64,000 bases of DNA, taken from contig RPFO01000178.1 in NCBI GenBank assembly GCA_009746045.1, positions 622,125 to 686,124 of the forward strand, read 5' to 3'. The position numbers were made by a program, and so were the translations under genes. Under the pieces are notes generated by a model that ran no database searches, had not been told where the DNA came from, and saw nothing but the letters and a program-made list of their open reading frames with translations. This document shows, in pieces, positions 20,601 to 55,339 of this stretch; position 1 is the stretch's first letter; every line of letters starts with the position of its first letter. This stretch comes from Mesostigma viride (Eukaryota; Streptophyta; Mesostigmatophyceae; Mesostigmatales; Mesostigmataceae).

Positions 20601-20777
20601 CCGAACAGAAGTCCTGTAATCTCCACCGCCGCCGTCGCCTGTCCCGGCCCTGGGAGGCGGCGAAGGGGCAAACGAGGGGGAGAAGGTAATCCACCTCCGA
20701 CCGGCGAGAGGGGCCGGAGAGGCCCCGCCAATTTCACTCGCCCCCCGCCCCGGCCCTCCCGATGGGCGACGCTTGCT

Positions 20778-20931: not shown

Positions 20932-21167
20932 CTCCACCTCCGATGGTCGGGGGCGGCGGGAGAGGTGGCGGCAGGTTCGCTCGCCCCCCGTCCCGGGTCC
21001 GTCGCGCCCCGAGTCTGGATGTGTTTGAAACGTCCTTTTCTCTTCTGGAGGGGCGGCGCGGGCGGGTGGGGGGTCGAGGGTGGATGAGAATGCGTGGTTT
21101 CGGTCGGGCTTCTTTTGGGCTCGGATCCGTCCGGTCTTCCTGTCGAGTCGACCCGTTCCAGTCTGCG

Positions 21168-21224
21168 TCCCGGCGCCCCCCGGGCCGGGGTTGGGAGGGG
21201 GTCGCGCTTAGGGGGCGGGAATAT
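21168..21224 (+). promoter_or_regulatory. Promoter-like block upstream of the Cys-rich gene
   Basis: TCCCGGCGCCCCCCGGGCCG followed by GGGTTGGGAGGGGGTCGCGC, then TTA, a G-rich gap and GGGAATATTATG. Nearly the same order of blocks recurs at 21664-21722 before the next gene, ending GGGAATAAAATG. Repetition only upstream of the two ORFs suggests a shared promoter. The mirrored copy is at about 24949-25005. Confidence 0.6.
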
Positions 21225-21257
21225 TATGCGGGGTCATGGTAAGGGAGATCGAGAGAG

Positions 21258-21647
21258 ATGGGGACGACTCTGGAGGACGTCCTGACCTGCCACGACTGCC
21301 GGCGCGGCATCCCGCTGGAGGGCTGGGACCCGGACCCCACCAGGGTGGACGCGGACGTCCGCGGGTACCTGCGCGGTCTGATCCCGAGCGTGTACGGCGA
21401 CGTCGTCGCCCCGTGCCTGGTCTGCCGCGGGTGCCACGAGAGGGAGGAGAAGAAGGAGGAGTGGGAGGACCCGCCGAGGATGTTCGACGAGCCCCTGAGC
21501 GACGACGCGATGCTGATCCTGTGCACCCTGAAGGGCGTGAAGCTGCCCCCAGAGTACAAATGGACCACCCCGATGGCCATGTGGGTGGTCCGCGACGGGG
21601 GTGTGGTGCTGGCCGGCCCGGCGACCCTGGGCCCGGCGGGTAAGTGA
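21258..21647 (+). CDS. Cys-rich (zinc-ribbon-like) protein, left arm copy
   Basis: 129 codons from ATG 21258. Cys pairs L-T-C-H-D-C (residues 9-14) and L-V-C-R-G-C (about 53-58) bracket a segment beginning G-W-D-P-D-P. The C-terminal block D-A-M-L-I-L-C-T-L-K-G-V-K-L-P is shared with the island protein at 15318-15638. It then continues W-T-T-P-M-A-M-W-V-V-R-D-G. The stop falls within GGGTAAGTGA, a strong splice-donor look-alike, so a longer spliced product is possible. It follows the promoter-like block by 33 bp. Function unknown; nucleic-acid binding is a guess. Confidence 0.65.
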   Translation: MGTTLEDVLTCHDCRRGIPLEGWDPDPTRVDADVRGYLRGLIPSVYGDVVAPCLVCRGCHEREEKKEEWEDPPRMFDEPLSDDAMLILCTLKGVKLPPEYKWTTPMAMWVVRDGGVVLAGPATLGPAGK

Positions 21648-21663
21648 CCGCGGCAAGTCTAAG

Positions 21664-21722
21664 TCCCGGCGCCCCTCGGGCCGGGGTTGGGAGGGGGTCG
21701 CGCTTACGGGAGAGGGAATAAA
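21664..21722 (+). promoter_or_regulatory. Promoter-like block upstream of the HNH-like gene
   Basis: Second copy of the block at 21168-21224: TCCCGGCGCCCCTCGGGCCG, GGGTTGGGAGGGGGTCGCGC, TTACG and GGGAATAAAATG. Here the ATG of the A+T-rich end is the start codon of the next gene (21723). That would leave almost no 5' leader unless transcription starts upstream. Confidence 0.6.
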
Positions 21723-22706
21723 ATGTGGGGGTATGATAACAGCGGCGATAGGCGAGAAAAGAAGATGACGACCCCCGCGTTCCAGCGCATGAACCTGCTG
21801 AACGAGATCGAGAGCTGCAAGAAGATAGCCCACATGCGCAAGAAGATGGGCGTGCACCGCGTGGTGAGGAAGTTCAACTCGGACTGGCGGTACAAGTGCG
21901 GTAAGACGCAGAGGAGGTTCAAGCCTCTGAGCGAGGCGGCGGCTTACGACCGCTGGACCGGCAAGTGCGCCGAGTGCCGGACGCCCCTCCGCTTCTTCGG
22001 CGCGCCGGAGCCCTTGGGCCTCCTGGTCCCCTCGCCGCACCCGAGCAGCGCCGGGCTCTCGCTGACCGGATCGGCCTCGGGCTGGCCCCCGGAGTGGCGG
22101 TGCGGTCTGTGCAGGGCGGGACCTCTGGACTCCGAGGCGGACGAGTTGCGCCACCTGAGGACGGAGGAGGAGTACCTGCGCGCCCGGAAGGGGGTGGCGA
22201 TCCCCAGCGGCCCCAAGGTGCCGGTTCTCCCCTTCCCCGAGGTCGCGCCGGAGAGCGCGCCGAAGGCGAAGCCCCCTCCCCGCTCCTGGGGGGGCGGGGA
22301 ATGCCCGGCCGGCGTGGAGCCGGAGGCGTGGCAGCACGTGAAGGGGTGCCTGACGTCCGCGGACTCCAGGGTGAAGAAGGACCTGCCCCTGAGCTGGCAG
22401 AGTACGGCTCACGGCGAGCGGGACCTGTCTGGGTACCTGCTGGATGGCGTGAGGAAGCTGGAGGCGCAAGGATGGGCCTGCGCCCACTGCGGCGGTCTGA
22501 TGTCCCTGCACGCGCCGCCCGAGCTGGAGCTGAAGCCGTCTCCCGACAAGATCGACACGCTGAACCGGGCGTACTTCCCCGACAACTACAGGTGGCTGCA
22601 CGTGAGCTGCAACCAGTCCAAGGGCGTGGACGACGGCATAGACCAGTGCAGGAGGAGGATGGCGGAGTACGAGAAGCTGCCGGACGCACCTGACCCCGTA
22701 GCATAA
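21723..22706 (+). CDS. HNH-like nuclease with extra Cys pairs, left arm copy
   Basis: 327 codons from ATG 21723 (a start at 21765 is possible). The C-terminal 90 residues carry an HNH/treble-clef pattern: W-A-C-A-H-C-G-G, then P-S-P-D-K-I-D, then Y-x-x-D-N-Y-R-W-L-H-V-S-C-N-Q-S-K-G. This is the C-x2-C ... S-x-D-x-x-D ... N-x3-W-L-H-x2-C-N-x-x-K layout of algal-virus and phage HNH proteins; the first His is replaced by S-P-D. Upstream are two further Cys pairs (C-A-E-C, C-G-L-C) that may form another zinc site. Such proteins cut or nick DNA, but activity here is unproven. The right arm has the identical gene inverted. Confidence 0.7.
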   Translation: MWGYDNSGDRREKKMTTPAFQRMNLLNEIESCKKIAHMRKKMGVHRVVRKFNSDWRYKCGKTQRRFKPLSEAAAYDRWTGKCAECRTPLRFFGAPEPLGLLVPSPHPSSAGLSLTGSASGWPPEWRCGLCRAGPLDSEADELRHLRTEEEYLRARKGVAIPSGPKVPVLPFPEVAPESAPKAKPPPRSWGGGECPAGVEPEAWQHVKGCLTSADSRVKKDLPLSWQSTAHGERDLSGYLLDGVRKLEAQGWACAHCGGLMSLHAPPELELKPSPDKIDTLNRAYFPDNYRWLHVSCNQSKGVDDGIDQCRRRMAEYEKLPDAPDPVA

Positions 22707-22845
22707 CGAACACCGAATGCTAATGACAAGTTCCCTCATCCAATGCATGTCTGACATGCCACGCGTCACTGTGCCATTGGTAGACAGTCCCAAAGCAAAG
22801 AAGGGCCCATCACCGCAGAGGTGACAGGCCCGGGATGCGCACAAG

Positions 22846-22970
22846 GAGGGCCGGGTTTGACCGCATGAGGGAGAGCTGGTTTCAAACAGGGAGGGCTGGG
22901 TTTGACAGCATAAGGGAGAGCTGGTTTCAAACAGGGAGGGCTGGGTTTGACAGCATAAGGACGGGTGCGG
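22846..22970. repeat. 45-bp tandem repeats near the palindrome centre (mirrored at 23203-23327)
   Basis: Units containing GGGTTTGACAGCATAAGGGA and GAGCTGGTTTCAAACAGGGA recur with period 45 (GGGTTTGA at 22853, 22898 and 22943). The inner 100 bp then run unbroken into the palindrome centre. Confidence 0.8.
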
Positions 22971-23466
22971 GTACAGGGCTCCCAGAAAAAATATCTAACC
23001 CCCATGGTATAGAGGATATCTAGGGTTTCCCAACTCACCCCTGTCCCCATGGGACCATGGGAGATGGTCCCGGCCCCATCAGAACGCGTTCTGATGGGGC
23101 CGGGACCATCTCCCATGGTCCCATGGGGACAGGGGTGAGTTGGGAAACCCTAGATATCCTCTATACCATGGGGGTTACATATTTTTTCTGGGAGCCCTGT
23201 ACCCGCACCCGTCCTTATGCTGTCAAACCCAGCCCTCCCTGTTTGAAACCAGCTCTCCCTTATGCTGTCAAACCCAGCCCTCCCTGTTTGAAACCAGCTC
23301 TCCCTCATGCGGTCAAACCCGGCCCTCCTTGTGCGCATCCCGGGCCTGTCACCTCTGCGGTGATGGGCCCTTCTTTGCTTTGGGACTGTCTACCAATGGC
23401 ACAGTGACGCGTGGCATGTCAGACATGCATTGGATGAGGGAACTTGTCATTAGCATTCGGTGTTCG

Positions 23467-24450
23467 TTATGCTACGGGGTCAGGTGCGTCCGGCAGCTTC
23501 TCGTACTCCGCCATCCTCCTCCTGCACTGGTCTATGCCGTCGTCCACGCCCTTGGACTGGTTGCAGCTCACGTGCAGCCACCTGTAGTTGTCGGGGAAGT
23601 ACGCCCGGTTCAGCGTGTCGATCTTGTCGGGAGACGGCTTCAGCTCCAGCTCGGGCGGCGCGTGCAGGGACATCAGACCGCCGCAGTGGGCGCAGGCCCA
23701 TCCTTGCGCCTCCAGCTTCCTCACGCCATCCAGCAGGTACCCAGACAGGTCCCGCTCGCCGTGAGCCGTACTCTGCCAGCTCAGGGGCAGGTCCTTCTTC
23801 ACCCTGGAGTCCGCGGACGTCAGGCACCCCTTCACGTGCTGCCACGCCTCCGGCTCCACGCCGGCCGGGCATTCCCCGCCCCCCCAGGAGCGGGGAGGGG
23901 GCTTCGCCTTCGGCGCGCTCTCCGGCGCGACCTCGGGGAAGGGGAGAACCGGCACCTTGGGGCCGCTGGGGATCGCCACCCCCTTCCGGGCGCGCAGGTA
24001 CTCCTCCTCCGTCCTCAGGTGGCGCAACTCGTCCGCCTCGGAGTCCAGAGGTCCCGCCCTGCACAGACCGCACCGCCACTCCGGGGGCCAGCCCGAGGCC
24101 GATCCGGTCAGCGAGAGCCCGGCGCTGCTCGGGTGCGGCGAGGGGACCAGGAGGCCCAAGGGCTCCGGCGCGCCGAAGAAGCGGAGGGGCGTCCGGCACT
24201 CGGCGCACTTGCCGGTCCAGCGGTCGTAAGCCGCCGCCTCGCTCAGAGGCTTGAACCTCCTCTGCGTCTTACCGCACTTGTACCGCCAGTCCGAGTTGAA
24301 CTTCCTCACCACGCGGTGCACGCCCATCTTCTTGCGCATGTGGGCTATCTTCTTGCAGCTCTCGATCTCGTTCAGCAGGTTCATGCGCTGGAACGCGGGG
24401 GTCGTCATCTTCTTTTCTCGCCTATCGCCGCTGTTATCATACCCCCACAT
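23467..24450 (-). CDS. HNH-like nuclease, right arm copy
   Basis: Mirror image of 21723-22706 with identical translation, from ATG at 24450. It has the same C-x2-C ... N-x3-W-L-H-x2-C-N pattern near its C-terminus. The two copies are convergent on the palindrome centre, separated by about 760 bp of non-coding DNA including the 45-bp repeats. Identity between copies indicates either very recent duplication, ongoing gene conversion or an assembly artefact. Confidence 0.65.
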   Translation of the reverse strand: MWGYDNSGDRREKKMTTPAFQRMNLLNEIESCKKIAHMRKKMGVHRVVRKFNSDWRYKCGKTQRRFKPLSEAAAYDRWTGKCAECRTPLRFFGAPEPLGLLVPSPHPSSAGLSLTGSASGWPPEWRCGLCRAGPLDSEADELRHLRTEEEYLRARKGVAIPSGPKVPVLPFPEVAPESAPKAKPPPRSWGGGECPAGVEPEAWQHVKGCLTSADSRVKKDLPLSWQSTAHGERDLSGYLLDGVRKLEAQGWACAHCGGLMSLHAPPELELKPSPDKIDTLNRAYFPDNYRWLHVSCNQSKGVDDGIDQCRRRMAEYEKLPDAPDPVA

Positions 24451-24525
24451 TTTATTCCCTCTCCCGTAAGCGCGACCCCCTCCCAACCCCGGCCCGAGGG
24501 GCGCCGGGACTTAGACTTGCCGCGG

Positions 24526-24915
24526 TCACTTACCCGCCGGGCCCAGGGTCGCCGGGCCGGCCAGCACCACACCCCCGTCGCGGACCACCCACATGGCCAT
24601 CGGGGTGGTCCATTTGTACTCTGGGGGCAGCTTCACGCCCTTCAGGGTGCACAGGATCAGCATCGCGTCGTCGCTCAGGGGCTCGTCGAACATCCTCGGC
24701 GGGTCCTCCCACTCCTCCTTCTTCTCCTCCCTCTCGTGGCACCCGCGGCAGACCAGGCACGGGGCGACGACGTCGCCGTACACGCTCGGGATCAGACCGC
24801 GCAGGTACCCGCGGACGTCCGCGTCCACCCTGGTGGGGTCCGGGTCCCAGCCCTCCAGCGGGATGCCGCGCCGGCAGTCGTGGCAGGTCAGGACGTCCTC
24901 CAGAGTCGTCCCCAT
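24526..24915 (-). CDS. Cys-rich (zinc-ribbon-like) protein, right arm copy
   Basis: Mirror image of 21258-21647 with identical translation. Same two Cys pairs and D-A-M-L-I-L-C-T-L-K-G block, and the mirrored promoter-like block lies just upstream on the minus strand. It is separated from the HNH-like gene by the second promoter-like block, as in the left arm. Confidence 0.65.
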   Translation of the reverse strand: MGTTLEDVLTCHDCRRGIPLEGWDPDPTRVDADVRGYLRGLIPSVYGDVVAPCLVCRGCHEREEKKEEWEDPPRMFDEPLSDDAMLILCTLKGVKLPPEYKWTTPMAMWVVRDGGVVLAGPATLGPAGK

Positions 24916-25686
24916 CTCTCTCGATCTCCCTTACCATGACCCCGCATAATATTCCCGCCCCCTAAGCGCGACCCCCTCCCAACCCCGGCCCGGGGGGCGC
25001 CGGGACGCAGACTGGAACGGGTCGACTCGACAGGAAGACCGGACGGATCCGAGCCCAAAAGAAGCCCGACCGAAACCACGCATTCTCATCCACCCTCGAC
25101 CCCCCACCCGCCCGCGCCGCCCCTCCAGAAGAGAAAAGGACGTTTCAAACACATCCAGACTCGGGGCGCGACGGACCCGGGACGGGGGGCGAGCGAACCT
25201 GCCGCCACCTCTCCCGCCGCCCCCGACCATCGGAGGTGGAGTGGATTCTCGTGCACGACTTCTTTTTCAGCCACCCCGGGAAATATTATTCCTGTATATA
25301 TAGCCCTATATATAGCCTATACCCTTTGCAATTTTTCATTACCCATATAATTATTTTTGAAAGAGTCTAAAAAAGAAGTAGTGCAAGAGAATCCAAGCAA
25401 GCGTCGCCCATCGGGAGGGCCGGGGCGGGGGGCGAGTGAAATTGGCGGGGCCTCTCCGGCCCCTCTCGCCGGTCGGAGGTGGATTACCTTCTCCCCCTCG
25501 TTTGCCCCTTGAATCGCCGCCTCCCAGGGCCGGGACAGGCGACGGCGGCGGTGGAGATTACAGGACTTCTGTTCGGACCGGGGGCTCCGGGGGGTCCAAG
25601 GGGTCTAGGGGGTCCAGGGGGTCCAGGGGGTCCAGGGGGACTGGGGGCTGCAGAGGCTCTGGGGGGGTAGCTCACGTAGTTGCTGG

Positions 25687-30685: not shown

Positions 30686-31121
30686 AGAATCGTGGTTCTC
30701 TGAACATAGTTTCTTTATAGTGAGATGGAAGGGTAGCCGCTATAGCTAGGTTATTGGGTTCACGTGACATACCTTTTGAGGCCGGTGCGGCCTGATCCGG
30801 ATCAGTCGTGGCCAAAGCTTTGGCCAGTTTTTCTTGGCCAGGTGGCAGGAGCTACGTTGAGATATAAACCTGCCACTGTCTAGGTTTCTTGGCTCATGGC
30901 GTAGTGATTAACTAGATCTAGATTCTTTCTCTCACGCAGTATGTGACCTAATAGCCCCGGCAGCCTTACGTAAGCTGCCGGCAATTAGAACGCCACATTG
31001 CGTCATTTGTTCAGACGCAACATTTGCGTGGCGAAAAAATGCCGTCCGGGCCAAGGCCGCATGACACGCAAAAAAGGACAAAAACAAACCCACCTAGCTA
31101 AGGTCGGCCTCTTTTCTTTTC
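30686..31121 (+). repeat. PAT-A repeat A1
   Basis: 436 bp identical by eye to A2 at 35591-36026. It starts AGAATCGTGGTTCTCTGAAC and ends in a pyrimidine tract CTTTTCTTTTC, after which the gag leader (ACGAGGGCGG) begins. It probably carries promoter and leader functions. A TTACGTAAGCTGCCGGCAAT hairpin-like stretch lies near 30966. Confidence 0.9.
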
Positions 31122-31208
31122 ACGAGGGCGGCGACAGCAAGCCAGGGGAAACGAACCTCTGGTTTGACGAACCTGTACTGTCGGAGCCATTTTTGGCCCT
31201 GAGCAGCA

Positions 31209-32263
31209 ATGCCGAAGGGGCGCAAAGCTACAGGAGGGCAGGCAGCGCGCGGGGAGGACGGGACGCCCACACCGCGGGCTGCTGCCGCCAGTCACGCGCC
31301 AGTCGCCTTCAGCGCCAAAAAGAAGCAGCTCGCCACTCTGCTCGCCAAGTGCATCAGCCCCGCAGAGGCGGTGGGGGCAGTCGAGCAGGTCTTCGGTGCC
31401 GAGGACTGGGTGACGGACGCCAGCTCGTGGAGCTCGAGCCAGCTGAAGTCTGTCGTGCAGTTGCTGGCCGATCACGTTGATGTTGGCGACGTGTTGGACG
31501 CACGTGACCCAAACGGAACGTTGGTGGCAAAACTGCTGGCCGTGGCAGATCTCGCGGCGGACGAGGAGGAGGATCAGGCGCTGCCACCAACGACACCTGC
31601 GCAGCGAAAAATGGCCAAGCCGAAAGGCGCGGCCAAGGTTTCGGCAGGTGGGGGGGCTGTCGGAAAGGAAATGAGGGCGAGGTTGGCGACATTCGTTGGG
31701 GCACCTCCGGAAACCGAAAATCAGGACGACGAGGAGGACGAGGAGGGGGAGGTCGCAGCCGAGAAATTCATGCAAGGTTTGAAGGCAGCGCTGGGAGGAA
31801 TGGAGGGGGCGGGAAGCCACTTCAAGGCCTCGAAAGGGGTGGCGCTGCCAAGCCGAGCCAAGAGCGTGAAATATCGGGTTTCGGAGCGGGTGCTGCCGGG
31901 GGTGTTGGAGGACGCCAGCGACAATGGGATGGGAATCCGGTCGTGGGTCATGACGGTAAAGCCTGGAAATTGGCGGAACATGGAGAACAGGAAAATTGTC
32001 ATGAACATTGCATTGGCCATGGACACCCTTCTCAAGGAGCTGGGCTCAGCAGCCGGGGAGCTTGTGGGCATGGAGTACCTAATGAGGGTGGTGGCGGCCT
32101 TGCTGCAGGTGGAAGGGCAAGGAGGGGGGGGTGGAAGGTGGCCAGCCACCTCCTGCCATTGGGGGAGGAGGCTGCACTGTCAGCCACCCCGGCTGTCAAG
32201 GCAGCTCTCCAAACTGCCATCCTCTTGGACAAGCTCAGCAAGGCTCAACAAGTAGGGAAATAG
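31209..32263 (+). pseudogene. PAT-A Gag-like ORF1 (slip at a G8 run)
   Basis: It opens with M-P-K-G-R-K at 31209. The N-terminus is basic and Ala-rich, followed by helical segments and an acidic stretch (D-D-E-E-D-E-E-G-E). The C-terminal region (G-M-E-Y-L-M-R-V-V-A-A-L-L-Q-V-E, about 32065-32115) aligns with C-F-E-Y-L-A-R-V-V-E-A-F-L-M-V-E of the PAT-B Gag. Homology to the PAT-B C-terminus (H-L-L-P-L...) continues only in another frame after a run of eight G (32124-32131), to the stop at 32263. So either the gene is broken or a slip at G8 is used. No zinc knuckle is visible. Confidence 0.7.
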
Positions 32264-35200
32264 AATCCCAGCGGGACCGCTCCCTTTTCCCGCTGCCATA
32301 CCCACTTAGGCCAGCGTACACCGCGTGGGGCAGGGTGAGATCGGCACGCCGGCGACAGCGTGCCACGCGCCGCCACCGCGAGTACACACTGCAATGCAAG
32401 GTAGTGCGTTGGCTTAATTGGCTGTGGGGAGGGGGGCAAGACCCTCCTCCTAACCCTAGAGGGGCGTGCTCTAAGGGGAGGGAGGAGGCCCTTGCGAGGG
32501 TCAAGAGGCACTGCACCTGGCACAGTCGCCGCGTAGGGGGCGTTGCGACAGGCCAGGAGCAAGAAGGTGCTGATGCAATATATGGGAAGCAGAATAAGTA
32601 TGAACAACTGCGCGCGGACGCGGTGAGTCTACCAAAGGCGGAGGTGGCGGGGAAGGCACGGCTGCTCGACCTGTTGGCTATGCGGCCGAGCTGGCGGGAG
32701 ATATATGCCAGCGAAGAGAACTGCATCAAGCCAGCGGTCGTGGCGAGCGCAAAGTATTGGAATGTGCCCAAGCCCAGCCGGGGATGCTCCATGGCTGAAT
32801 GGGGCAAGCTCATGAGCCGGGCAGCGGGCGTGGGCATGGTGGCGTTCCGGGAGAGGCGGCCCAAGTGGGTGGATGGCTGCTTTGGAGTGGCCAAGGGGGT
32901 GGGTGAGCTTCGGTTCATCGTCAACAGGAAGCTGGGCAACCTGCTGTGGGTGGACCCCCCCAAGATCCTGCTACCCCACCTGGGCATCCTCGTGGAGGTC
33001 TACATCAAAGGCTGGTGCTACTGCGCCAAGAGCGACCTCGTGTCATACTACTATTCCATCGAGGTGCCCGAGTGGTGGTGGGACTACCAAGGGCTTCCTA
33101 GTGTGTGGTCGACTAGCGTAGGTCTGGCAGGGCCCAGGCGGAAGGTGTGGCCCGTGCTCAAGGTGCTGGCCATGGGACATTCCCATGCGGTGGCGCTGGG
33201 GGAGGCCATCCATGAGATGGTGCTCTACATGACCGGTGCCCTGGATCCGAGGCGCCAGGTCAACTACCTCTCAAGCGCAGGTGAGCTCACCTTGGTGCGC
33301 GACGAGTGTGGCCAGCCACTGCGCTTGGCCATCGAGTACAAGGAGGAGCGCGCCGGGGAGCTTCAGATTGACCTGGAAAACCCCCCTGCCCCCATGCTGT
33401 CCATCACTATTGATGACTTGGTGGCCAGCAACGGGCGGACCTGCGAGGCGGTGAACCAGCTCATCACGCGCGCTATTGAGGAAGGCTACCTCCCTAACAA
33501 CCTTGTGCCGTCTAAGGAGAAGACTAAGATGGCGAGCCTGGAAGGGGACGAGCTAGAAGCCCTAGGGGTGGTGCACCGACGGAACGGCGTGCTGGAACCA
33601 ACGGTCAAGCAGCTCAACCTTGTGATCGCCCACACGCAGGCTATACTCACTCGAGGCCGAGCTACGGCCGAGGGGCTGGCTGCCGTCTTGGGGCGGTGGT
33701 TGTGGCTGCAGATGTTAAGCCGCAGCTGCTTGTCCATTTGGCAGCAATGTTTCAAATTCATCAGCCTGCAAGGGTGGGGGCAGCGATCCTGGGTGCTGTG
33801 GGCCGGGGTGCGGGAGGAGTTAGAGTGTGCCCTGGCCTTGGCTCCCATGCTAAGGGTTGACCGAAGCGCACCTTTGGCCCGTGAGGTGGTTGCATCTGAC
33901 GCGTCCACCTACGGGCAAGGTGTCGTGTACGCAACCATGGAGCCGGGCGATGTGACGGAGCTGGCGAGGGCACGAGAGGTGCGGGGGTACCCGACTTTGC
34001 TCATACCAAGTGAGGTGGCCTACGCTGGCCCTAGGCCACTGAGCGCGCGGGCGCAACAAGCAATCACTAGCCAGCAATGGCGGGTTGGGGTCCGGAGTCG
34101 TTGGCGGGATCCGGGGATGCACATCAACGAGAAGGAGGTGCGGGCTGCAGTGAAGGGCGTGGAGAGGAGTGCGCGCAGCTTGGCAAACCGAGGCAAGCGG
34201 GTGGTGAGGTTGGTGGACTCCACCGCGGCGTTGGGCTGCTTGGCTAAGGGGCGGTCCTCATCCCACAAGCTCAACAAGCAGTGCCGCCGCTTGTGCGCGC
34301 TGACCCTCGCCACGGGGAGTCGTTCCCAGTGGGTGTGGACGCCGAGTGCACTTCAACCAGCCGATGGCGTTTCTCGCGGCCAATCCATGGCGACTTTCTT
34401 GGCAGGCTGGGTGCGCGACCTGACCGCGGAAGGCATCCATCCTAACCCGGGGCCCCCTGCACCTGTTAGCTACCTTCCATTGCTAGAGGGGAAAGTAAAG
34501 CCGGCTACTTTGCTGGCCTACCGTCGTGGTCTTGATTCCCTCTTGACTTGGTGGGAGGCTGGTGGGCGGGCGGACGGGTCATCGTCACGAGCTGACACCC
34601 TTGAGGAGACATTTTGTGCGTATGTCGCCTGGGCTCATTTTCGGGGGTACAGCCGCCAAGTGTGTGTCAATGCCTTGATGGGGTTGCAACTTTATTATCC
34701 CGGTATGGTGAAGCGGTGGGACTTGGCCCGTGGCGTCCTCGCTGGGTGGAAAACACTTGTGCCCCCCCGTGCCCCTCCTCCCATTCCATGGGAGGCGGCG
34801 TTTGCACTTGCCAGCACGATGGTCATGCAAGGTCAGCGCCTTGCGGGCCTGCTGGTTGTCATCGTGTTCCGCCATTACCTGCGAATCTCGGAGGCGCTGA
34901 ACCTCCGTGTTGGCCATGTGCGCCTCCAGCCTGACGTTCGGCTTGGGCCGGCTCAACGGGGCGCCCTACTGCTGAGGTCTACCAAGACCTCTAAGGGCAA
35001 GACTCAGTCAGTGGTGGTAGAAGATGTGATGTCTGAAACCATCCTCCGTCACTGCATCGCGGGTAAGCACGCTTGGGAGGCCGTGTTCCCTTTCACCTAC
35101 CCGCAATTCCGGCGCATTTGGCAGGCTGCGAGTCAGGCCTTGGGGGTCGCCCAGATTTTCACCATTCACGGGCTGCGGCATGGAGGTGCCACTCACGATT

Positions 35201-35385
35201 TCCTCGCGGGTCGCAGCATGGGGGACATCCAGGGCCGGGGGCGCTGGCTTAGCAGCTCCACGGTTGCCCATTATGTGGGCTTGCACCGCAGTTTGGAGGT
35301 GCAGCTGCCTGAGGTTATTCTTCGGGCCATGGCCGCCTGCCCCCCTCGGGCCTGGCGGGCTATTTTGAAATTGCCCTCCACCTAA
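32131..35385 (+). CDS. PAT-A ORF2: RT - RNase H - 2A-like - tyrosine recombinase
   Basis: A single open frame of about 1084 codons overlaps the end of ORF1 in another frame; the listed start is a GTG and the real entry may be by frameshift. RT: F-R/I-V-N-R-K (about 33055-relative residue 262), motif A with K-S-D-L (Asp about residue 302), motif C I-D-D-L (about 428-429). RNase H: A-S-D-A-S-T-Y-G (590), N-E-K-E (667-669), V-D-S-T (696), A-D-G-V-S-R-G (about 750). A degenerate 2A-like motif sits at about 769-775. Recombinase: Y-L-R-I-S-E-A (Arg 918), H-G-L-R-H-G-G (His 1013, Arg 1016), G-R-W, and Tyr about 1048 in A-H-Y-V-G-L-H. All catalytic residues are present; no protease or DDE integrase. 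This copy could be active. Confidence 0.92.
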   Translation: MEGGQPPPAIGGGGCTVSHPGCQGSSPNCHPLGQAQQGSTSREIESQRDRSLFPLPYPLRPAYTAWGRVRSARRRQRATRRHREYTLQCKVVRWLNWLWGGGQDPPPNPRGACSKGREEALARVKRHCTWHSRRVGGVATGQEQEGADAIYGKQNKYEQLRADAVSLPKAEVAGKARLLDLLAMRPSWREIYASEENCIKPAVVASAKYWNVPKPSRGCSMAEWGKLMSRAAGVGMVAFRERRPKWVDGCFGVAKGVGELRFIVNRKLGNLLWVDPPKILLPHLGILVEVYIKGWCYCAKSDLVSYYYSIEVPEWWWDYQGLPSVWSTSVGLAGPRRKVWPVLKVLAMGHSHAVALGEAIHEMVLYMTGALDPRRQVNYLSSAGELTLVRDECGQPLRLAIEYKEERAGELQIDLENPPAPMLSITIDDLVASNGRTCEAVNQLITRAIEEGYLPNNLVPSKEKTKMASLEGDELEALGVVHRRNGVLEPTVKQLNLVIAHTQAILTRGRATAEGLAAVLGRWLWLQMLSRSCLSIWQQCFKFISLQGWGQRSWVLWAGVREELECALALAPMLRVDRSAPLAREVVASDASTYGQGVVYATMEPGDVTELARAREVRGYPTLLIPSEVAYAGPRPLSARAQQAITSQQWRVGVRSRWRDPGMHINEKEVRAAVKGVERSARSLANRGKRVVRLVDSTAALGCLAKGRSSSHKLNKQCRRLCALTLATGSRSQWVWTPSALQPADGVSRGQSMATFLAGWVRDLTAEGIHPNPGPPAPVSYLPLLEGKVKPATLLAYRRGLDSLLTWWEAGGRADGSSSRADTLEETFCAYVAWAHFRGYSRQVCVNALMGLQLYYPGMVKRWDLARGVLAGWKTLVPPRAPPPIPWEAAFALASTMVMQGQRLAGLLVVIVFRHYLRISEALNLRVGHVRLQPDVRLGPAQRGALLLRSTKTSKGKTQSVVVEDVMSETILRHCIAGKHAWEAVFPFTYPQFRRIWQAASQALGVAQIFTIHGLRHGGATHDFLAGRSMGDIQGRGRWLSSSTVAHYVGLHRSLEVQLPEVILRAMAACPPRAWRAILKLPST
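34432..34455 (+). other. Degenerate 2A-like motif in PAT-A ORF2
   Basis: The codons read G-I-H-P-N-P-G-P, in the position where PAT-B has a canonical 2A. The N-P-G-P core is intact, but the consensus D is missing and E is H. It lies between the RNase H end (A-D-G-V-S-R-G) and the recombinase N-terminus. Skipping activity is doubtful. Confidence 0.6.
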
Positions 35386-35426
35386 TTTGGTTGTTCATTT
35401 CTCTGTCATTATGCTAGGTTCTTTGC

Positions 35427-35447
35427 CCCTGGCATGGATCGCCAGGG
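35427..35447 (+). other. Hairpin after the PAT-A recombinase stop
   Basis: CCCTGGC - ATGGATC - GCCAGGG: a 7-bp perfect stem with a 7-nt loop, 42 bp after the stop codon and just before repeat B1. PAT-B elements have a hairpin at a similar place. Confidence 0.55.
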
Positions 35448-35457
35448 AGGGATATAA

Positions 35458-36188
35458 GGGTAAGGCTAGCCTTTGCCAAGCAATAAGTGTTCCCATGAGC
35501 ATCGGCGGCCGGGATGTGGCCTGCCTTTTGTATGTGCTCCACTCATTGTTTTAATAAAGAGTCTGGTTACCCTGGAGTTCCACGGTTAATAGAATCGTGG
35601 TTCTCTGAACATAGTTTCTTTATAGTGAGATGGAAGGGTAGCCGCTATAGCTAGGTTATTGGGTTCACGTGACATACCTTTTGAGGCCGGTGCGGCCTGA
35701 TCCGGATCAGTCGTGGCCAAAGCTTTGGCCAGTTTTTCTTGGCCAGGTGGCAGGAGCTACGTTGAGATATAAACCTGCCACTGTCTAGGTTTCTTGGCTC
35801 ATGGCGTAGTGATTAACTAGATCTAGATTCTTTCTCTCACGCAGTATGTGACCTAATAGCCCCGGCAGCCTTACGTAAGCTGCCGGCAATTAGAACGCCA
35901 CATTGCGTCATTTGTTCAGACGCAACATTTGCGTGGCGAAAAAATGCCGTCCGGGCCAAGGCCGCATGACACGCAAAAAAGGACAAAAACAAACCCACCT
36001 AGCTAAGGTCGGCCTCTTTTCTTTTCCCGCCCACCCTCCCTGCGTGTTTGGGGGTAAGGCTAGCCTTTGCCAAGCAATAAGTGTTCCCATGAGCATCGGC
36101 GGCCGGGATGTGGCCTGCCTTTTGTATGTGCTCCACTCATTGTTTTAATAAAGAGTCTGGTTACCCTGGAGTTCCACGGTTAATAGAA
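35458..36188 (+). repeat. PAT-A 3' block: B1 - A2 - G4 linker - B2
   Basis: B1 35458-35590 (133 bp) and B2 36052-36184 match; A2 35591-36026 matches A1. B contains TTTTAATAAAGAG, a poly(A) signal (35551-35563, 36145-36157). B1 and A2 are directly joined, as a circle junction would be. A2 and B2 are separated by a 25-bp linker with CCCGCCCACCCTCCC at 36026-36040, so the complementary strand carries four G triplets with one-base loops. Confidence 0.92.
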
Positions 36189-48784: not shown

Positions 48785-49003
48785 GGGCTCTTATGAATGG
48801 ACAACAAAGACAAGCTTTATTATACCATGATGAATCAAAACCAACGTAGCAACAATGGCGACCCCACGTCCTTGATATCGACGTGCTTGTCGAGCATGCC
48901 TCAACCTTAGCCTGAAGAGAACCAATCAAAATCATGGAATTCTAAACAAGATCTTCGTATCCATCCTAGTCACACAAAACAGAACAACAACACCAACAGC
49001 CTG
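48785..49003 (-). repeat. 5' LTR of G2 copy 2, piece 2 of 3
   Basis: 219 bp continuing exactly from piece 1. It ends CAGCCTG at 49003, where PAT-B1 is inserted. Piece 3 resumes GCAGAATC at 55340 with no base lost or duplicated. Confidence 0.92.
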
Positions 49004-49510
49004 ATTGATCTTACGATCGGGATTCCCTGATTTTGCCTGGGGGAGCGGAGGGATGGAGGTGCGCCGCTACCTTGGAGGCGCTACACCGTTGCCCAGTGGT
49101 GCAAGTCGACATGCGGGAGCCAAACGGGGTGGCCACGTCCTCTCTGGAGGGTCTGACAGCCTTGGATGGGCCTCAGATGTAGTTCGAACTAGTTCAAAGT
49201 TAGTACAGGTAGTACCAACTAGTTCAAACTAGTTCAATCTACTTCAACTAGTATCCAGGGACCCTCAAGATATGCCAGGTGGTTGCTGAACGGTTCTGAC
49301 ATGACAGAACATGTGTGACATCATAAAAATGTAGTACAATGTTGAAAAAAGTAGTATCAGGGTCCTAGATCTAGTACAGTAGTATTCTGAGGTCATTCTT
49401 ACATGGAGCGCCGCGCCAGCGGGGCGCCGCACTTGCGTGTGTCACGGATGCAACGTTGATGCGATGTATTTCAAGGTGGTGATGGCTGCCAAGCCAGCTT
49501 ATCAGTTTTC
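49004..49510 (+). repeat. PAT-B1 repeat A1
   Basis: It starts ATTGATCTTACGATCGGGAT and ends CAGTTTTC; A2 at 54651-55157 is the same length with only a few base differences (ACCAACTAG versus ACAAACTAG near 49210). It contains clustered GTAGTAC/GTTCAAACTAG motifs (49185-49250) that also occur in the 58235 family, perhaps binding sites or promoter elements. Confidence 0.9.
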
Positions 49511-49751
49511 AACACAACTAGAGCAATACTTCACCGTTTTTGACAAAGTTGGTGTCAAACTAATCGTGAGACAATAGCCGACAACATTTTGACGGTTTTC
49601 GCACCAAGTTTTGACGGGTTTGCGCAACGGGAGTAAAAGTCCGCAAGGTAGAACTGAGTGACAAATTTTCAGTCCGAAATTTTTCTCAGTCTCCAAGATT
49701 GCGGAATATTGAGCCTAGTTGTGAGAAATTTCTTCATCTTTGAATTCTATA

Positions 49752-50462
49752 ATGGCTAGTGATCACGAAGACACCACCCTTGAGGCAGTAGACCGAGATT
49801 TCTTATTAAATGTGAAAAAATCGTATTTTCAGGGGGGCAAGGAGCTGTTAACGACTTTGAAGTTCTTGACTGAGTATCTCGGTCCAAACTGGGCCCAAAG
49901 GCTTACTACTATGTCTGAGGGTCGTTTGACATCCTTGGGACAGTTTCTCAAGACTGCAGGGCTCCAGATTAGTGAGGGGTCAAGTGATTCCGACATGGGT
50001 TCCATGTTGTGCAAGGCCATTACTCTAGAGATGAAGAAGCCCCCAGTGGCCACTGGGGGCAAGGGGAAGACTGGTCCAGCCAGGGGCGAAAGGACCCGAA
50101 AGGATCCTCCCAGCAACGGCACCGACGAGGAAGAGGAGGACGCGACGAGCTCTGAGGATTTTTTGGACGCGCGCGAGCAGCTGGCCCCTGCTGCTGCTCG
50201 CGCCAAGGGAAAGAAGTCTCAGGGCAGGAACCGAAAGCTGGCAGAGAATGCTGCCCTTCTGGCGGGCGTCCGCGAGCTCATCGGAGCGGAGTTGCAAGCC
50301 CTGGCGCGGGGGAAGAGGAGGGACGCGAGGAAAGGGAAGAGCCAGCGCGAGGACAAGGGGGGCAAGGGCCATCCGAAGAGCAAGCGCCAGGAGAAGAGAC
50401 GCGCGCGGCGCGGGAGCAGCCCAGGCTCGACAGACACCAGCAGTGGGAGCGACGAGAGTCGC

Positions 50463-50531
<69 letters not shown>

Positions 50532-51276
50532 CAGCTCCGACAGCGAGAGCAGAGGCCGTGGCAGGGGCAGGGGTGGCGCTCGGTCGCGCCGCGACAAGTC
50601 CCGGGAGCGACGTGGGCATGGCAGGGGCCGTTCTGCGGAGCCCAAGGGGCGTCGGGATCGCTCCCGCGAGCGTCGCAAGGAGCGGCAGCGGTCCAGCAGC
50701 CGGAGCACGAGTCGGGACTCCTCCCAGCGGAGCTCGCGTCGATCGCGGGAGCGTGTGAGGGAGAGAGACCTGCGCCGAACCACCAAGGGGGTGCGTCTCC
50801 CCCGGCGAGCTTTCAAAGTGGCCTGGCGCCTGTTGGTCAAGGACCGCGACGACAGGGTGCTGCCGCTGCAGGTGCTGGATGCGCGCCAGGTCGCGCACGG
50901 GAGCCTGCAGGCCCGCTTGGCCCTTCGCAAGGAGCAGGAGGGCGTTGGGGCTGCACCGGGAGCCCCCCGCGGGTGGAAGAACAGCACGCACCATCTGGTG
51001 TGCAACAACCTGACCTACATTCTGGATGTGGCCATCCAAGAGCTGGGGGAGGATGTGGTGACGGAGCTGGCCTGCTTCGAGTACCTGGCGCGTGTGGTCG
51101 AGGCGTTCCTCATGGTGGAGAAGACCAGCGGCTGGAACAACGGGGCGATGCACCTGCTGCCACTGGTGGAGGGCAGTACTATTGGAAGCGCAGCAGCCCG
51201 GGCAGCGCGGAAGGCGGCTCGCCAGGAGGCGGAGCTGGCATCGGCGGCGGCGGCGGCGGCCAAAAAGGACAAGTGA
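49752..51276 (+). pseudogene. PAT-B1 Gag-like ORF1, frame change at a CAG tract
   Basis: It starts M-A-S-D-H-E-D at 49752. The N-terminal 230 residues (helical start, acidic D-E-E-E-E-D, basic K/R-rich) are in one frame up to a tract of 22 CAG codons read as Ser (50465-50530). The matching downstream part is in another frame: D-S-S-D-S-E-S-R-G-R-G-R-G, then Arg-Ser repeats like an SR protein, then the conserved C-terminus ending A-K-K-D-K at 51276. The C-terminus aligns with PAT-A Gag. PAT-B2 shows the same frame change with 13 CAGs, so it is ancestral to both or is recoded. RNA binding through the RS-rich part is plausible. Confidence 0.75.
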
Positions 51277-52327
51277 GGGGCAGGGGTGTGCTCCCGCTGC
51301 CAGTGAAGATGGTCCCCCGCTCGACCGCAGCCGCCTGCGATCCAACCGCAGGCTGCAGCGCGCTCTGCGTGCCAGAGCAAGGCTGCGGTGTCAAGAGCGG
51401 GCCACAAGGGGCCTGAACTGGCTGTGGGGCAGGACCCGGGAACGGTCCGGTGGACCGGCGGTGCAGCAGCAGGCTATTACTGCGAGCCCCTGCACCGTCG
51501 CCCAAAGGGCCGCCCTACAAGGGATGGAGGATGCTGCCCGCGTCTACAACCGCCGGCTTACCGCCGTAGCGGAGGCGACAGACACGGGGGACGCAGAGCC
51601 CGCGCCATACGGGCCGGGCGGTCAATACGAAATTATTGACCCGGAGAGGCTGGCACTGCCAAAAGGAGGAGCTGCAGGTAGTGTCAAGCTGCTGGACTGC
51701 CTGCCGGAGGCATGGCAGAGGACGTATGAGGACATAAACAACATTCTACAAAGATGCGACGCGGAGGCGGGGGCGTGGATGCGGCGGGGCCGGGTGTCTC
51801 ATGGTTGTGCAAGCGATGCGGCGTACGCACGACTGAGCATCAGGCTGGCGGAGACGCGGATGATCGAGTACAGTGAGGAGGCGCCGCCTGTGGTGAACGG
51901 CTGTTTTGCCGTCCCCAAGAAAGACCCCGGGGTTGTGGAGCCCAGCGAACGACGGCAGCGGTTTATAGGGAATATGGTGCCGTGCAACCGGCGCTTCCTC
52001 AAGCCGCCTACCTGTTACCTGCCTAACTTGGGCGAGGTCGCTGAGCTGAGTGTGGGGGCGCCATGCTATTCGGGCAAGACAGACCTTGACACCTACTATT
52101 ACCGGTTCGAGGTACCTGAGAGCTGGCGCCCCTATTTCTCGCTGCCCCCCGTGTGGTCCGATGAGGTCGGCCAGCTGGGACGACGGCGAAAGTTGTACCC
52201 CAGGTTCCGGGTCCTTGTCATGGGCTGGAGCCACTCGGTGGTCCTTGCACAGGTTGCCCACCTGCACTGTCTCTACGGGGCGGGGTGCTCGATGCCAAGA
52301 GAGGGCTGTCATATCCCATGCACTTGA
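51092..52327 (+). pseudogene. PAT-B1 ORF2 part 1: reverse transcriptase (fingers/palm)
   Basis: The frame is open from 51092, overlapping the Gag C-terminus; the conserved sense starts near L-N-W-L-W-G (about 51415), which PAT-A also has. Motifs: N-G-C-F-A-V-P-K-K-D (about 51897), K-T-D-L-D-T-Y-Y-Y (motif A, about 52077) and V-L-V-M-G-W-S-H-S (motif B, about 52210). The frame then ends, and RT continues after a -1 shift at the GGGGCGGGG near 52277-52285. PAT-B2 has the same break, while PAT-A reads straight through. Confidence 0.85.
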
Positions 52328-54435
52328 TGGGGGTGCGCACAGTGCGCGGGGATGGCATGGACCGGCTGGAGTTGGTGGAGAGCGCAGCCAGTGCAGCGTG
52401 GCGGCTGCTGCCGGAGGATCCCCCACATCCCGCTCAGCTGGTCATGATCGATGATCTGGGGGTCACCCATGGGCGGAGCGCGGAGGAGACCAACGCCGTG
52501 CTCACCAAGGCGTGCGAGGAGAGCTACGGTCCCAAGGGGTTGGTGGTCAACGAGAAGAAGGTGGAGAGAGCTGAGGAGGGGCGCCCGGTGGAAATCTTGG
52601 GGATTGAGTTCTGCCAGGACGGGTCCATGCGGCCGAGCGCGGCCCGGATGGCGGCCTTGGTGCGCGACACGCAGGCAATGCTGGGGCGTGGACGGGCCAC
52701 TTACCACCAACTGGCCTCGTTGCTGGGACGGTGGGTGTGGGTCCACTTGCTGCGTCGGGGTCTACTGTCCATCTGGTTTCACGCCTACCGCTTGCTGCAG
52801 CAAGTCCTGGTGCACAAGCGGGGCTGGAGCTATCGGCTGTGGGGTAGTGTAAGGGAAGAGCTCCAGGCTGCAATGGACTTGGCCCCGCTGGTGCATGCGC
52901 AGCGCGACCAGCCCCTGAGCTGCACCGTGGTGGCCACTGATGCGTCAACCCACGGTTCTGGGGTGGTGTACAGCCGGTGGGAGGCGCCTGCGGTGCGTGG
53001 CCTGTCCAACTGTCGGGAGCGGAAGGGCTGGAAGACGCTCTGTGTGGACTCTGAGACGGCCAGCGTGGAGCGCACAGGGGAGATTGAGCACCGAGCCATG
53101 GCAGCGGCGCAGTGGCGGACCGCTCTTGCCCACCGGTGGCTCGATCCCTCGGCCCACATCAACGAGAAGGAGATTCGTGCGGCTGTGCAAGGGATCGAGT
53201 GGGGCCTGCGCTCACAGGTTCACTGGCAGCAACGTCACGTGCGGCTGGTGGACAATTCGGCAGTTGTCGGTGCGCTCGTCAAAGGGCGTTCGTCGTCCTA
53301 CCGGCTGAACGCCTGGTGCCGCCGGGCGATCGCGCTAGGGCTGGCCAGCAACACCCGCTACCACTGGGTGTATGTGAGGTCGGAGCGCAACCCGGCCGAC
53401 GCGCCCAGTCGTGGTCGATGGGTGCGCAACCTCACTGCGGATGGCGACGTGGAGAGCAATCCGGGGCCACATGGGCGGCAGGAATTGCTGGAGGCCACTG
53501 TGCAGCCCAGCACGCTAGCTGCATATCACCGAGCGCTGAGGGCGTACGTGGAGTATGGTCAACCCCTCGCTCCCGTGGCCAAGACGGAGGCGGAAGGCGT
53601 CTTTTGTGAGTGGCTGGTCAGCGTGTATGAGGAAGGGGGAAGCCGGACCATGGTTGTGCGCGCATTATGCGGGCTGCAGCTGTACTTCCCCAACGAGATT
53701 AAGGGGTGGTACGAGGCGCGTCGCTTGCTGGCCGGCTGGGCGCGACGAGTTCCCGTGCAGAGCCCTCACCCCGTCCCGTGGCAGCTACTGTACCTCGTGG
53801 CAAACATTCTTCGTGCACAAGGCTCGATATTAGCTGCCTGCTGCTGCATCATTGTTTTTCAGCAATACTTGCGCATCGGAGAAGCGTTCAAGCTTCGCGT
53901 GGGGGACGTGGCTCTGCGCGGGGACTTCCGCCTGGGGCCCAGTAACCAGGGTGCGCTGCTGCTACGCGACCCCAAGACAGCCAAGGGCCAGGCCCAGGCA
54001 GTGGTGGTTGTTGAGCCCCTTTCACTCACGTTGCTTGGCGCCCTGTGTGCTGGGCGGGCGCACGAGGAGCTGCTCTTTGGCGCACTCAGCTACAGCCGTT
54101 TCTTGCGGCGGTGGCACGCCGCCTGGGACCTCCTTGGCTTGCGGGGGATGTTTTCACCCTACAGCATGCGCCACGGGGGGGCCACCCATGACTACCTGCG
54201 CGGGGTACCAATCGCGGACATCCAAAAGCGTGGCCGGTGGCGCCAGTTTTCGTCCGTGGACCATTACGTGGGGCTCCACCGCGCCCTGCAGGTGCGGGTG
54301 CCCCAGGTGGTGTGGGACCTCGCGGGCAGACTGCCCCCCGTGACTGGCGTCGTCACTTTGGGCCGTAGATTTCGGCCATACTTCGGTGAGGCGCACTCTA
54401 GCGGACACGCTAGGGCTTCACCAGCTGGAGGGTAA
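52285..54435 (+). CDS. PAT-B1 ORF2 part 2: RT catalytic end, RNase H, 2A, tyrosine recombinase
   Basis: About 716 codons. RT motif C is M-I-D-D-L (about 52445). RNase H: A-T-D-A-S-T-H-G (52937), I-N-E-K-E (53158), L-V-D-N-S-A-V (53248) and N-P-A-D-A-P-S-R-G (53390). A canonical 2A motif follows at 53446-53469. Recombinase: Y-L-R-I-G-E-A-F (Arg about 53871), D-P-K-T-A-K (Lys about 53980), Y-S-M-R-H-G-G-A-T-H (Arg about 54168), R-G-R-W and D-H-Y-V-G-L-H (Tyr about 54265). The first His of the H-x-x-R box is Tyr here and in PAT-B3, whereas PAT-A keeps His. No DDE integrase or protease is present. Confidence 0.9.
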   Translation: MLDAKRGLSYPMHLMGVRTVRGDGMDRLELVESAASAAWRLLPEDPPHPAQLVMIDDLGVTHGRSAEETNAVLTKACEESYGPKGLVVNEKKVERAEEGRPVEILGIEFCQDGSMRPSAARMAALVRDTQAMLGRGRATYHQLASLLGRWVWVHLLRRGLLSIWFHAYRLLQQVLVHKRGWSYRLWGSVREELQAAMDLAPLVHAQRDQPLSCTVVATDASTHGSGVVYSRWEAPAVRGLSNCRERKGWKTLCVDSETASVERTGEIEHRAMAAAQWRTALAHRWLDPSAHINEKEIRAAVQGIEWGLRSQVHWQQRHVRLVDNSAVVGALVKGRSSSYRLNAWCRRAIALGLASNTRYHWVYVRSERNPADAPSRGRWVRNLTADGDVESNPGPHGRQELLEATVQPSTLAAYHRALRAYVEYGQPLAPVAKTEAEGVFCEWLVSVYEEGGSRTMVVRALCGLQLYFPNEIKGWYEARRLLAGWARRVPVQSPHPVPWQLLYLVANILRAQGSILAACCCIIVFQQYLRIGEAFKLRVGDVALRGDFRLGPSNQGALLLRDPKTAKGQAQAVVVVEPLSLTLLGALCAGRAHEELLFGALSYSRFLRRWHAAWDLLGLRGMFSPYSMRHGGATHDYLRGVPIADIQKRGRWRQFSSVDHYVGLHRALQVRVPQVVWDLAGRLPPVTGVVTLGRRFRPYFGEAHSSGHARASPAGG
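53446..53469 (+). other. Canonical 2A ribosome-skipping motif
   Basis: The codons read D-V-E-S-N-P-G-P, matching the 2A consensus D-(V/I)-E-x-N-P-G-P, preceded by L-T-A-D-G. It lies after the RNase H terminus and before the recombinase N-terminal (SAM-like) domain. If active it would release RT-RNase H from the recombinase during translation. Confidence 0.85.
54398..54413 (+). other. GNNA-loop hairpin at the end of the PAT-B1 recombinase
   Basis: CTAGCG-GACA-CGCTAG, within the last codons of ORF2. Related hairpins with changed but still paired stems occur in PAT-B3 at 59577-59592, 59637-59652 and 59750-59765. Confidence 0.7.
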
Positions 54436-54502
54436 GGATGTGCCCTCCCATGGCTCCTGACGCGGTTTCCAGATGTACGGCCTGCGGCCAGGTTGGAGAT
54501 GC

Positions 54503-55339
54503 GGGTCAAGTGGAAGCGGCGGCCAGGGACTGCCAAAAAATATTTTATGTCTCTCTGTCTACTAAGTCCGGTCGGCTTCAACATATAGTGTAATAAACAA
54601 GTTCTGGTGCCCTTCAACCAGAAGTGGACCTAGGCAATGCACAGTGGATGATTGATCTTACGATCGGGATTCCCTGATTTTGCCTGGGGGAGCGGAGGGA
54701 TGGAGGTGCGCCGCTACCTTGGAGGCGCTACACCGTTGCCCAGTGGTGCAAGTCGACATGCGGGAGCCAAACGGGGTGGCCACGCCCTCTCTGGAGGGTC
54801 TGACAGCCTTGGATGGGCCTCAGATGTAGTTCGAACTAGTTCAAAGTTAGTACAGGTAGTACAAACTAGTTCAAACTAGTTCAATCTACTTCAACTAGTA
54901 TCCAGGGACCCTCAAGATATGCCAGGTGGTTGCTGAACGGTTCTGGCATGACAGAACATGTGTGACATCATAAAAATGTAGTACAATGTTGAAAAAAGTA
55001 GTATCAGGGTCCTAGATCTAGTACAGTAGTATTCTGAGGTCATTCTTACATGGAGCGCCGCGCCAGCGGGGCGCCGCACTTGCGTGTGTCACGGATGCAA
55101 CGTTGATGCGATGTATTTCAAGGTGGTGATGGCTGCCAAGCCAGCTTATCAGTTTTCCCCACCCACCCACCCTTTTCTGTTTTGTCTTGGGGGGTCAAGT
55201 GGAAGCGGCGGCCAGGGACTGCCAAAAAATATTTTATGTCTCTCTGTCTACTAAGTCCGGTCGGCTTCAACATATAGTGTAATAAACAAGTTCTGGTGCC
55301 CTTCAACCAGAAGTGGACCTAGGCAATGCACAGTGGATG
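54503..55339 (+). repeat. PAT-B1 3' block: B1 - A2 - G4 linker - B2
   Basis: B1 54503-54650 and B2 55192-55339 match over 148 bp; A2 54651-55157. B includes GTGTAATAAACAAG, a poly(A)-like signal. The linker is CCCACCCACCCACCC (55158-55172), a T-rich piece, then GGGGG. The opposite strand of the first part is GGGTGGGTGGGTGGG, a textbook parallel quadruplex motif. Confidence 0.92.

Follow-up and report, generated by a model that had tools for sequence, protein, structure and literature searches.

How a retrotransposon that carries reverse transcriptase (RT), RNase H and tyrosine recombinase (YR) in one reading frame could obtain its recombinase as a free protein is the question raised by an octapeptide, DVESNPGP, in a 64,000-nucleotide stretch of the streptophyte alga Mesostigma viride (contig RPFO01000178.1, positions 622,125 to 686,124 of the forward strand; hereafter the window, whose coordinates are used below). 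The octapeptide belongs to PAT-B1, a PAT-type retrotransposon of the DIRS order, and has the core of the StopGo/2A peptides. We consider it very probable, from sequence evidence, that this octapeptide and the 9-10 residues upstream of it form a StopGo/2A element at the RNase H-YR junction, which would free the recombinase from a single RT-RNase H-YR frame without a protease. A ribosome translating such a frame would leave the Gly-Pro bond of NPG/P unformed, RT-RNase H would be released carrying a short 2A tail, and translation would go on to yield a free recombinase starting with Pro, StopGo thereby substituting both for a protease and for the separate YR open reading frame (ORF) that other DIRS elements have. 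What we infer here is the skipping, how efficient it is in the alga, and that the element needs a free recombinase.

The octapeptide and the elements that carry it

The first-pass annotation had placed DVESNPGP in frame exactly at the RNase H/YR boundary of PAT-B1, and the sequence bears this out: it is encoded at 53446-53469 on the + strand, as residues 428-435 of the stop-to-stop ORF 52165-54435 (756 aa), with an upstream flank ending in ERNPADAPSRGRWVRNLTADG on the RNase H side and a downstream flank beginning with HGRQELLEATVQPSTLAAYHRAL on the recombinase side. Pfam Phage_integrase matched residues 551-703 of this ORF (E 6e-7). The annotation had also pointed to GIHPNPGP at the homologous place of a second element, PAT-A, where it is indeed found (34432-34455), inside the 1099-aa ORF 32086-35385. 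Across all six frames of the window NPGP occurs seven times, with [DG][VI]xxNPGP fitting 53446 and 34432 only and [DGCN][VI]ExNPGP fitting 53446 only. The features concerned are given below, p12 and the like denoting StopGo positions; here and throughout, published sources are cited for the sections available.

53446..53469, + strand: StopGo/2A core octapeptide D-V-E-S-N-P-G-P of PAT-B1 (ORF translation and six-frame motif scan)
Gly(53464-53466)/Pro(53467-53469), + strand: predicted unmade bond in PAT-B1
53419..53445, + strand: PAT-B1 upstream context W-V-R-N-L-T-A-D-G, motif 4 (DLTxDG) with N replacing D at the first position (PMC12846837)
53467..54432, + strand: predicted free tyrosine recombinase product, starting at the Pro of NPG/P (Pfam; Cre/Xer fold of the homologous PAT-A stretch)
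52165..54435, + strand: PAT-B1 open frame with the 3' part of RT, RNase H, 2A and tyrosine recombinase, about the first 39 codons lying outside the RT frame
34432..34455, + strand: PAT-A StopGo-type octapeptide G-I-H-P-N-P-G-P (p12 = G, p14 = H)
34408..34431, + strand: PAT-A upstream context W-V-R-D-L-T-A-E, StopGo upstream motif 1 (PMC12846837)
32086..35385, + strand: PAT-A single open frame RT-RNase H-2A-tyrosine recombinase, 1099 aa
51062..52327, + strand: start of the PAT-B1 RT in a different frame (frame-broken copy)
49725..51416, + strand: PAT-B1 gag-like ORF, N-terminal part
49002..49524, + strand: PAT-B1 split direct repeat A1
54503..54650, + strand: PAT-B1 split direct repeat B1
54649..55171, + strand: PAT-B1 split direct repeat A2
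55192..55339, + strand: PAT-B1 split direct repeat B2
30686..31141, + strand: PAT-A split direct repeat A1 (A2 at 35591-36046)
35458..35594, + strand: PAT-A split direct repeat B1 (B2 at 36052-36188)

The window thus described holds two complete PAT-type elements, PAT-B1 (about 49002-55339) and PAT-A (about 30686-36188), and a partial further B-type copy at its right end, with the A1-ORFs-B1-A2-B2 plan of PAT-like elements (DIRS order) present in both complete ones. A 2A-bearing non-LTR (long terminal repeat) retrotransposon, with an APE endonuclease and neither recombinase nor terminal repeats, is excluded by the recombinase and the split repeats.

Comparison with the assayed classes (PMC12846837) revealed a close match in both elements. 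The StopGo core is (D/G/C/N)(V/I)ExNPGP, rare active variants include H at p14 and p16, and C12 and H16 are each reported active singly. Upstream motif 1 is (R/K)DLTxE with p12 = G and p15 = P, upstream motif 4 is DLTxDG with p12 = D and p15 = S, and the two have WV(R/K)DLTx[acidic]G in common at a one-residue offset; tested representatives of both were almost 100% active in reticulocyte lysate (PMC12846837). PAT-A, with WVRDLTAE-GIHPNPGP, corresponds to motif 1 plus H14, and PAT-B, with WVRNLTADG-DVESNPGP, matches motif 4 save for one residue, the initial D being N; two further families of the genome, C (DLTADG) and D (DLTSDG), have motif 4 itself. Two offset versions at homologous places of sister elements would be hard to explain without StopGo.

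The motif also coincides with a boundary between folded units. In an AlphaFold2 model of PAT-A residues 601-1099 (mean predicted local distance difference test score, pLDDT, 77) it occupies model residues 183-190, within a stretch of pLDDT < 50 (168-195) that separates an alpha/beta unit from the helical start of the recombinase, and Foldseek gave Cre and XerA as top matches over ~300 columns (Cre E 1.6e-6), so that the in-frame boundary is followed by a Cre/XerA-like fold. Pfam Phage_integrase likewise matched PAT-A downstream of the octapeptide (E 6.7e-7). For RT and RNase H, Pfam gave no family above its cut-off in the window proteins, the one trace being a DNA_pol_viral_C match below threshold (P0001, residues 384-419, E 0.063); both assignments are suggested by the motifs IDD and DAS...E...D...NPAD, which we take to mark RT and RNase H, together with homology to other fused proteins. 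The annotation's general statement that PAT elements lack a protease stands for the window ORFs P0001-P0004, in which Pfam (E 0.1) found no protease family, and its scope is those ORFs.

Copies, families and selection in the Mesostigma genome

Scanning the genome (440 Mb, 2243 contigs) for D(V/I/M)ExNPGP revealed 177 matches (86 + 91) versus 0 for a reversed-pattern control, with at least 12 distinct DNA spellings among the first match places listed. A chance origin of the motif is ruled out by this comparison and by the six-frame scan of the window. All 42 scored PAT-A copies, the best of 3266 first-look candidates, were 100% identical in protein to the window protein and open over all 1099 codons, and these at least 42 identical intact copies suggest a recent spread. 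Since scoring covered the top candidates and the list lacks the copy in the window itself, further PAT-A copies, decayed ones included, are likely.

A second scoring covered 59 loci, the best of 2497 first-look candidates, and for family B longer stop-to-stop frames through the motif were found elsewhere in the genome (1421, 1065, 1102 and 1102 aa). Thirty of 30 loci (L001-L030) have one identical 102-base junction, and 19 of the 20 larger loci (L031-L050) have the motif in an open stretch no shorter than 200 aa, with L047 failing that filter. Family C is 71-72% identical to B and has frames through the motif of 909 to 1044 aa; its junction sequence is also borne by P0010 (EukProt Mesvir1). 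Six match places outside the main B spelling (L051-L056) were examined, three of which have RNase H/YR junctions: L051 and L054 constitute family D, with the junction GGWRRDLTSDGDVEANPGP or GGWHRDLTSDGDVEANPGP and the context DLTSDG, and L055 is a C-like copy bearing DVER. The remaining three (L052, L053 and L056) have DLTxDGDVExNPGP without a recognisable RNase H/YR junction. At a further place, L057, the motif lies outside recognisable recombinase elements, and an 81-codon unit containing it is duplicated in tandem.

Evaluating substitutions between families B and C, we found the octapeptide to differ by 4 synonymous and 0 non-synonymous changes (one pair and eight codons, weak taken alone) and the 17 residues WVR..NPGP by 8 synonymous and 1 non-synonymous, compared with a dS (synonymous divergence) of 1.46 and a dN (non-synonymous divergence) of 0.23 over the entire aligned part and a dN of 0.35 over the 25 codons beyond the final Pro. 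This evidence is strengthened because the relatives P0007-P0011 retain DVExNPGP; across P0006-P0011 (P0006 being the window's own) the free x alone varies (S, A, S, R, S, T), and P0011 terminates shortly after the motif with no recognisable YR. A codon- or RNA-level role of the motif is not supported, given synonymous changes in 4 of the 8 codons, and the octapeptide appears conserved at the amino-acid, not the codon, level.

Some further observations concern the gag-pol part of the elements and the surrounding window. In PAT-A the gag-like protein (31203-32263) seems to change frame and carry on beyond eight consecutive G (32124-32131), the pol frame (32086 onward) has its first Met not before residue 199, and all 42 scored copies encode the same pol-frame protein over the stretch that contains this G run; slippage or frameshifting there, ahead of the 2A, is possible. 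In PAT-B1 the C-terminal part of the gag-like protein seems, from the reading frames, to continue in the frame of 50035-51276. Elsewhere the window has a perfect inverted repeat at 20663-25510 (arms of 2424 nt, zero spacer), which is either a young palindrome or an assembly fold-back, and, from 27720 onward, a nearly perfect tandem array of 8-nt units.

Relatives beyond Mesostigma and their junctions

The annotation had made its proposal depend on related elements having the motif at the same boundary, and they do, including a distant protein, P0023, and a large set of dinoflagellate-type proteins. A search with PAT-A residues 640-1099 returned 14 proteins. P0023, 33% identical to PAT-A, has the junction WVRDLTRE-CVEPHPGP (C12 plus H16), with WVRDLTRECVEPHPGP aligned against WVRDLTAEGIHPNPGP and, over a wider stretch, AWVRDLTRECVEPHPGP against GWVRDLTAEGIHPNPGP. 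P0028 (EukProt Skav206696, which we take to be from a Symbiodiniaceae alga) has the junction RWIRFLLMLCGDIHPNPGP. Its C-terminal 440 residues as query returned 305 proteins, of which 120 are listed; the motif makes up 8 of the 440 query residues, and because the query held it, the list leans towards carriers. The entire listed set is presumably dinoflagellate, judging from its few named members (Symbiodinium, Skav).

Among these 120 listed proteins, query included, 118 have D[IVK][EH]x[NH]PGP at the junction after an L-rich context (100 exact D(V/I)ExNPGP, 13 D(V/I)ExHPGP, 2 DIHPNPGP, 2 DIHPHPGP and 1 DKEPNPGP), and they cluster into 87 groups at 80% identity and 25 at 60%. The columns of RW(L)RxLLLLxGD(I/V)E are nearly fixed across the 118 and the three PGP columns are invariant, with p15 less constrained (R 53, P 45, E 15, plus others). 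Immediately beyond the final Pro lies the column of highest entropy among those printed (3.73 bits); from that Pro to a conserved RG, the linker measures 1-22 residues in 117 of the 118. Constraint that ends abruptly at Pro is what StopGo would predict.

Profile-profile comparison of the Mesostigma-type with the dinoflagellate-type alignment (the latter made from 40 of the 120 listed proteins) gave a probability of 100 over 834 columns at 12% identity. In a model of the dinoflagellate-type P0039 the motif (residues 470-477) again falls within a stretch of pLDDT < 50 (450-483), followed by a Cre-like recombinase (fold search, Cre E 2e-4); the same search gave weak DNMT1 matches (E 0.011), which would fit an upstream cytosine-methyltransferase domain. 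Pfam found nothing on P0028, P0036 and P0016. Sequence searches of the PDB gave a YR match, 4a8e (E 1.1e-4), with the Mesostigma-type alignment; with the dinoflagellate-type alignment they gave a ribosomal protein only (E 0.022), which was taken as chance. No relatives of P0023 and P0028 were found in viral contigs.

Two other junction peptides were observed among the relatives. P0022 and P0030, ~25% identical, have FDSTLGFPGEGP at the junction in common, possibly a separating peptide of unrecognised kind, and three related proteins (P0016, P0019 and P0029) have RIGEA(S/R)NPGP before the YR, which ends in NPGP and has a non-canonical core; neither FDSTLGFPGEGP nor RIGEASNPGP (the S form) had any match in viral contigs (0 each). 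In a tree of 27 proteins (whole sequences including the 2A columns, midpoint root) the Mesostigma-type and L-rich dinoflagellate-type proteins form separate supported groups with elements lacking a canonical 2A beside them, and the two proteins sharing the FDST junction peptide fall in different groups. Because these groups separate, there would seem to have been repeated gain, loss or exchange of junction peptides, or else replacement of an old 2A, a reading kept tentative because of long branches. A wider proposal takes the RNase H/YR junction as a recurrent site of recoding peptides, with the motif 1, motif 4 and L-rich classes in separate branches, RIGEA(S/R)NPGP and FDSTLGFPGEGP as unrecognised StopGo classes, and skipping as the ordinary means of YR release in fused algal and dinoflagellate elements; we regard it as possible and rather doubtful.

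Competing explanations and known systems

Several findings weigh against a StopGo/2A element at this junction. The window copy PAT-B1 is not a single open RT-RNase H-YR frame, its RT start lying in 51062-52327 and the remainder in 52165-54435, and decayed copies are under-counted in both scorings, which covered the best candidates only. Family B has N in place of motif 4's D at 30 of 30 loci (L001-L030), and PAT-A joins p12 = G with p14 = H; p14 = H is a reported active variant and occurs within the p12 = G set, this exact peptide not being among those seen in the sections available (PMC12846837). In the dinoflagellate-type list of 120, two proteins, P0064 (known as a gene-model prediction) and P0125, are without [NH]PGP: the P0064 junction was not found by the motif expression, and P0125 (6 member sequences) differs from P0111 in that exactly the seven residues DVERNPG are gone, which would be either a variant naturally devoid of 2A or an artefact of the prediction. 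Finally, 2A separation is not universal for fused frames, because fused RNase H-YR relatives without NPGP exist (P0022, P0024, P0025, P0026 and P0030). The YR of these five was recognised by motifs that presumably identify it, and that of P0022 was also matched by Pfam.

Those five proteins, presumably working as fusions, together with the position of NPGP in a domain linker of the PAT-A model, would suit an explanation in which NPGP is a conserved structural linker (a Pro-Gly turn) in a polyprotein that works unskipped. We think this unlikely, as such a linker would not select D-(V/I)-E-x-N-P-G-P plus the 8-10-residue context of assayed StopGo classes, the conservation ends at the final Pro, and the positions that vary here (p15; N/H at p16; H at p14) are StopGo's own variable ones. 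Recombinase production by other means (internal initiation, splicing or a subgenomic transcript), with a minor part for the motif, has a precedent in the separate YR ORF of typical DIRS1-like elements (PMC3266345), and in P0021, a database protein, the junction appears to be missing, as it would be from a spliced gene model. However, a predicted gene model is no evidence of splicing, and PAT-A and several B/C copies have an uninterrupted frame through the junction, which makes this route very improbable in our view. We give almost no credence to the motif being a relic, that is, a 2A inherited via recombination with a virus or non-LTR retrotransposon and now without a role: the broken frame of PAT-B1 and the three loci that carry DLTxDGDVExNPGP away from recognisable junctions are in its favor, but it is opposed by the absence of non-synonymous against 4 synonymous octapeptide differences between B and C, by the intact and identical state of all 42 scored PAT-A copies (best candidates) and by retention of the motif in 118 of the 120 listed dinoflagellate-type proteins.

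The 2A interpretation offered by the first-pass annotation, on the other hand, fits by placement, frame, conservation and upstream context and by the StopGo-type octapeptides of distant relatives. The annotation further took 2A as not known to have been described in YR retrotransposons, and our literature searches, which did not cover the survey of viral and cellular proteomes by Rao et al. 2025 (Cell Rep), likewise found no earlier report; neither DIRS nor tyrosine recombinase occurs in the available text of PMC5009743. The evidence supports a known mechanism at a site where it would make functional sense, in a retrotransposon order for which no report was found, and extends beyond what the annotation had proposed. 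StopGo would be a regular part of chromosomal retrotransposons in a streptophyte alga, with another upstream class in a large dinoflagellate-type set. If true, this would explain a free recombinase from one fused DIRS-type frame without a protease and would make a further retrotransposon order a natural user of 2A; it would also provide numerous natural StopGo sequences, from dinoflagellates and the green lineage, for direct testing.

Among known systems, StopGo is frequent in RNA viruses and seldom found in cellular genes, and the sections available give no evidence that plant viruses use it naturally (PMC12846837). The RNA-virus peptides (motifs 1 and 4 and the L-rich 2/6) and those described here have in common the core D/G(V/I)ExNPGP, WV(R/K)DLTx[acidic]G or LLLLxG upstream, the same G offset between p11 and p12, a free p15 and the rare variants H14, H16 and C12 (PMC12846837). 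Unlike them, the present peptides, which are predicted from sequence, lie in chromosomal YR retrotransposons (those of a green alga and the dinoflagellate-type ones), at the RNase H/recombinase site, with N at p6 in family B. Outside viruses, 2A-like sequences are described in non-LTR retrotransposons and some NLR proteins (PMC11512398, PMC4981915). The former (L1Tc of Trypanosoma cruzi; APE-type elements; Odon et al. 2013 as cited in PMC11512398 and PMC4981915) likewise carry a 2A-like peptide inside a retrotransposon frame; in contrast, ours are of the DIRS/PAT order with YR integration and split direct repeats, and the site is the end of pol, before the integration enzyme.

Within the DIRS order, PAT-like elements have the same plan A-ORFs-B-A-B with gag, RT-RNase H (putative here) and tyrosine recombinase, and the YR ORF of DIRS1-like elements is separate or overlapping (PMC3266345), whereas here the YR is fused in frame to RT-RNase H with a StopGo-type peptide between. 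The SymbioDIRS-Dnmt3 elements are DIRS-type elements of Symbiodiniaceae with a cytosine-methyltransferase domain in pol (compare the weak DNMT1 matches of P0039) and a YR in a separate ORF, the available sections on them containing no self-cleav term and no mention of 2A (PMC5890265). The proteins described here differ from these in having the YR in frame after a StopGo-type peptide.

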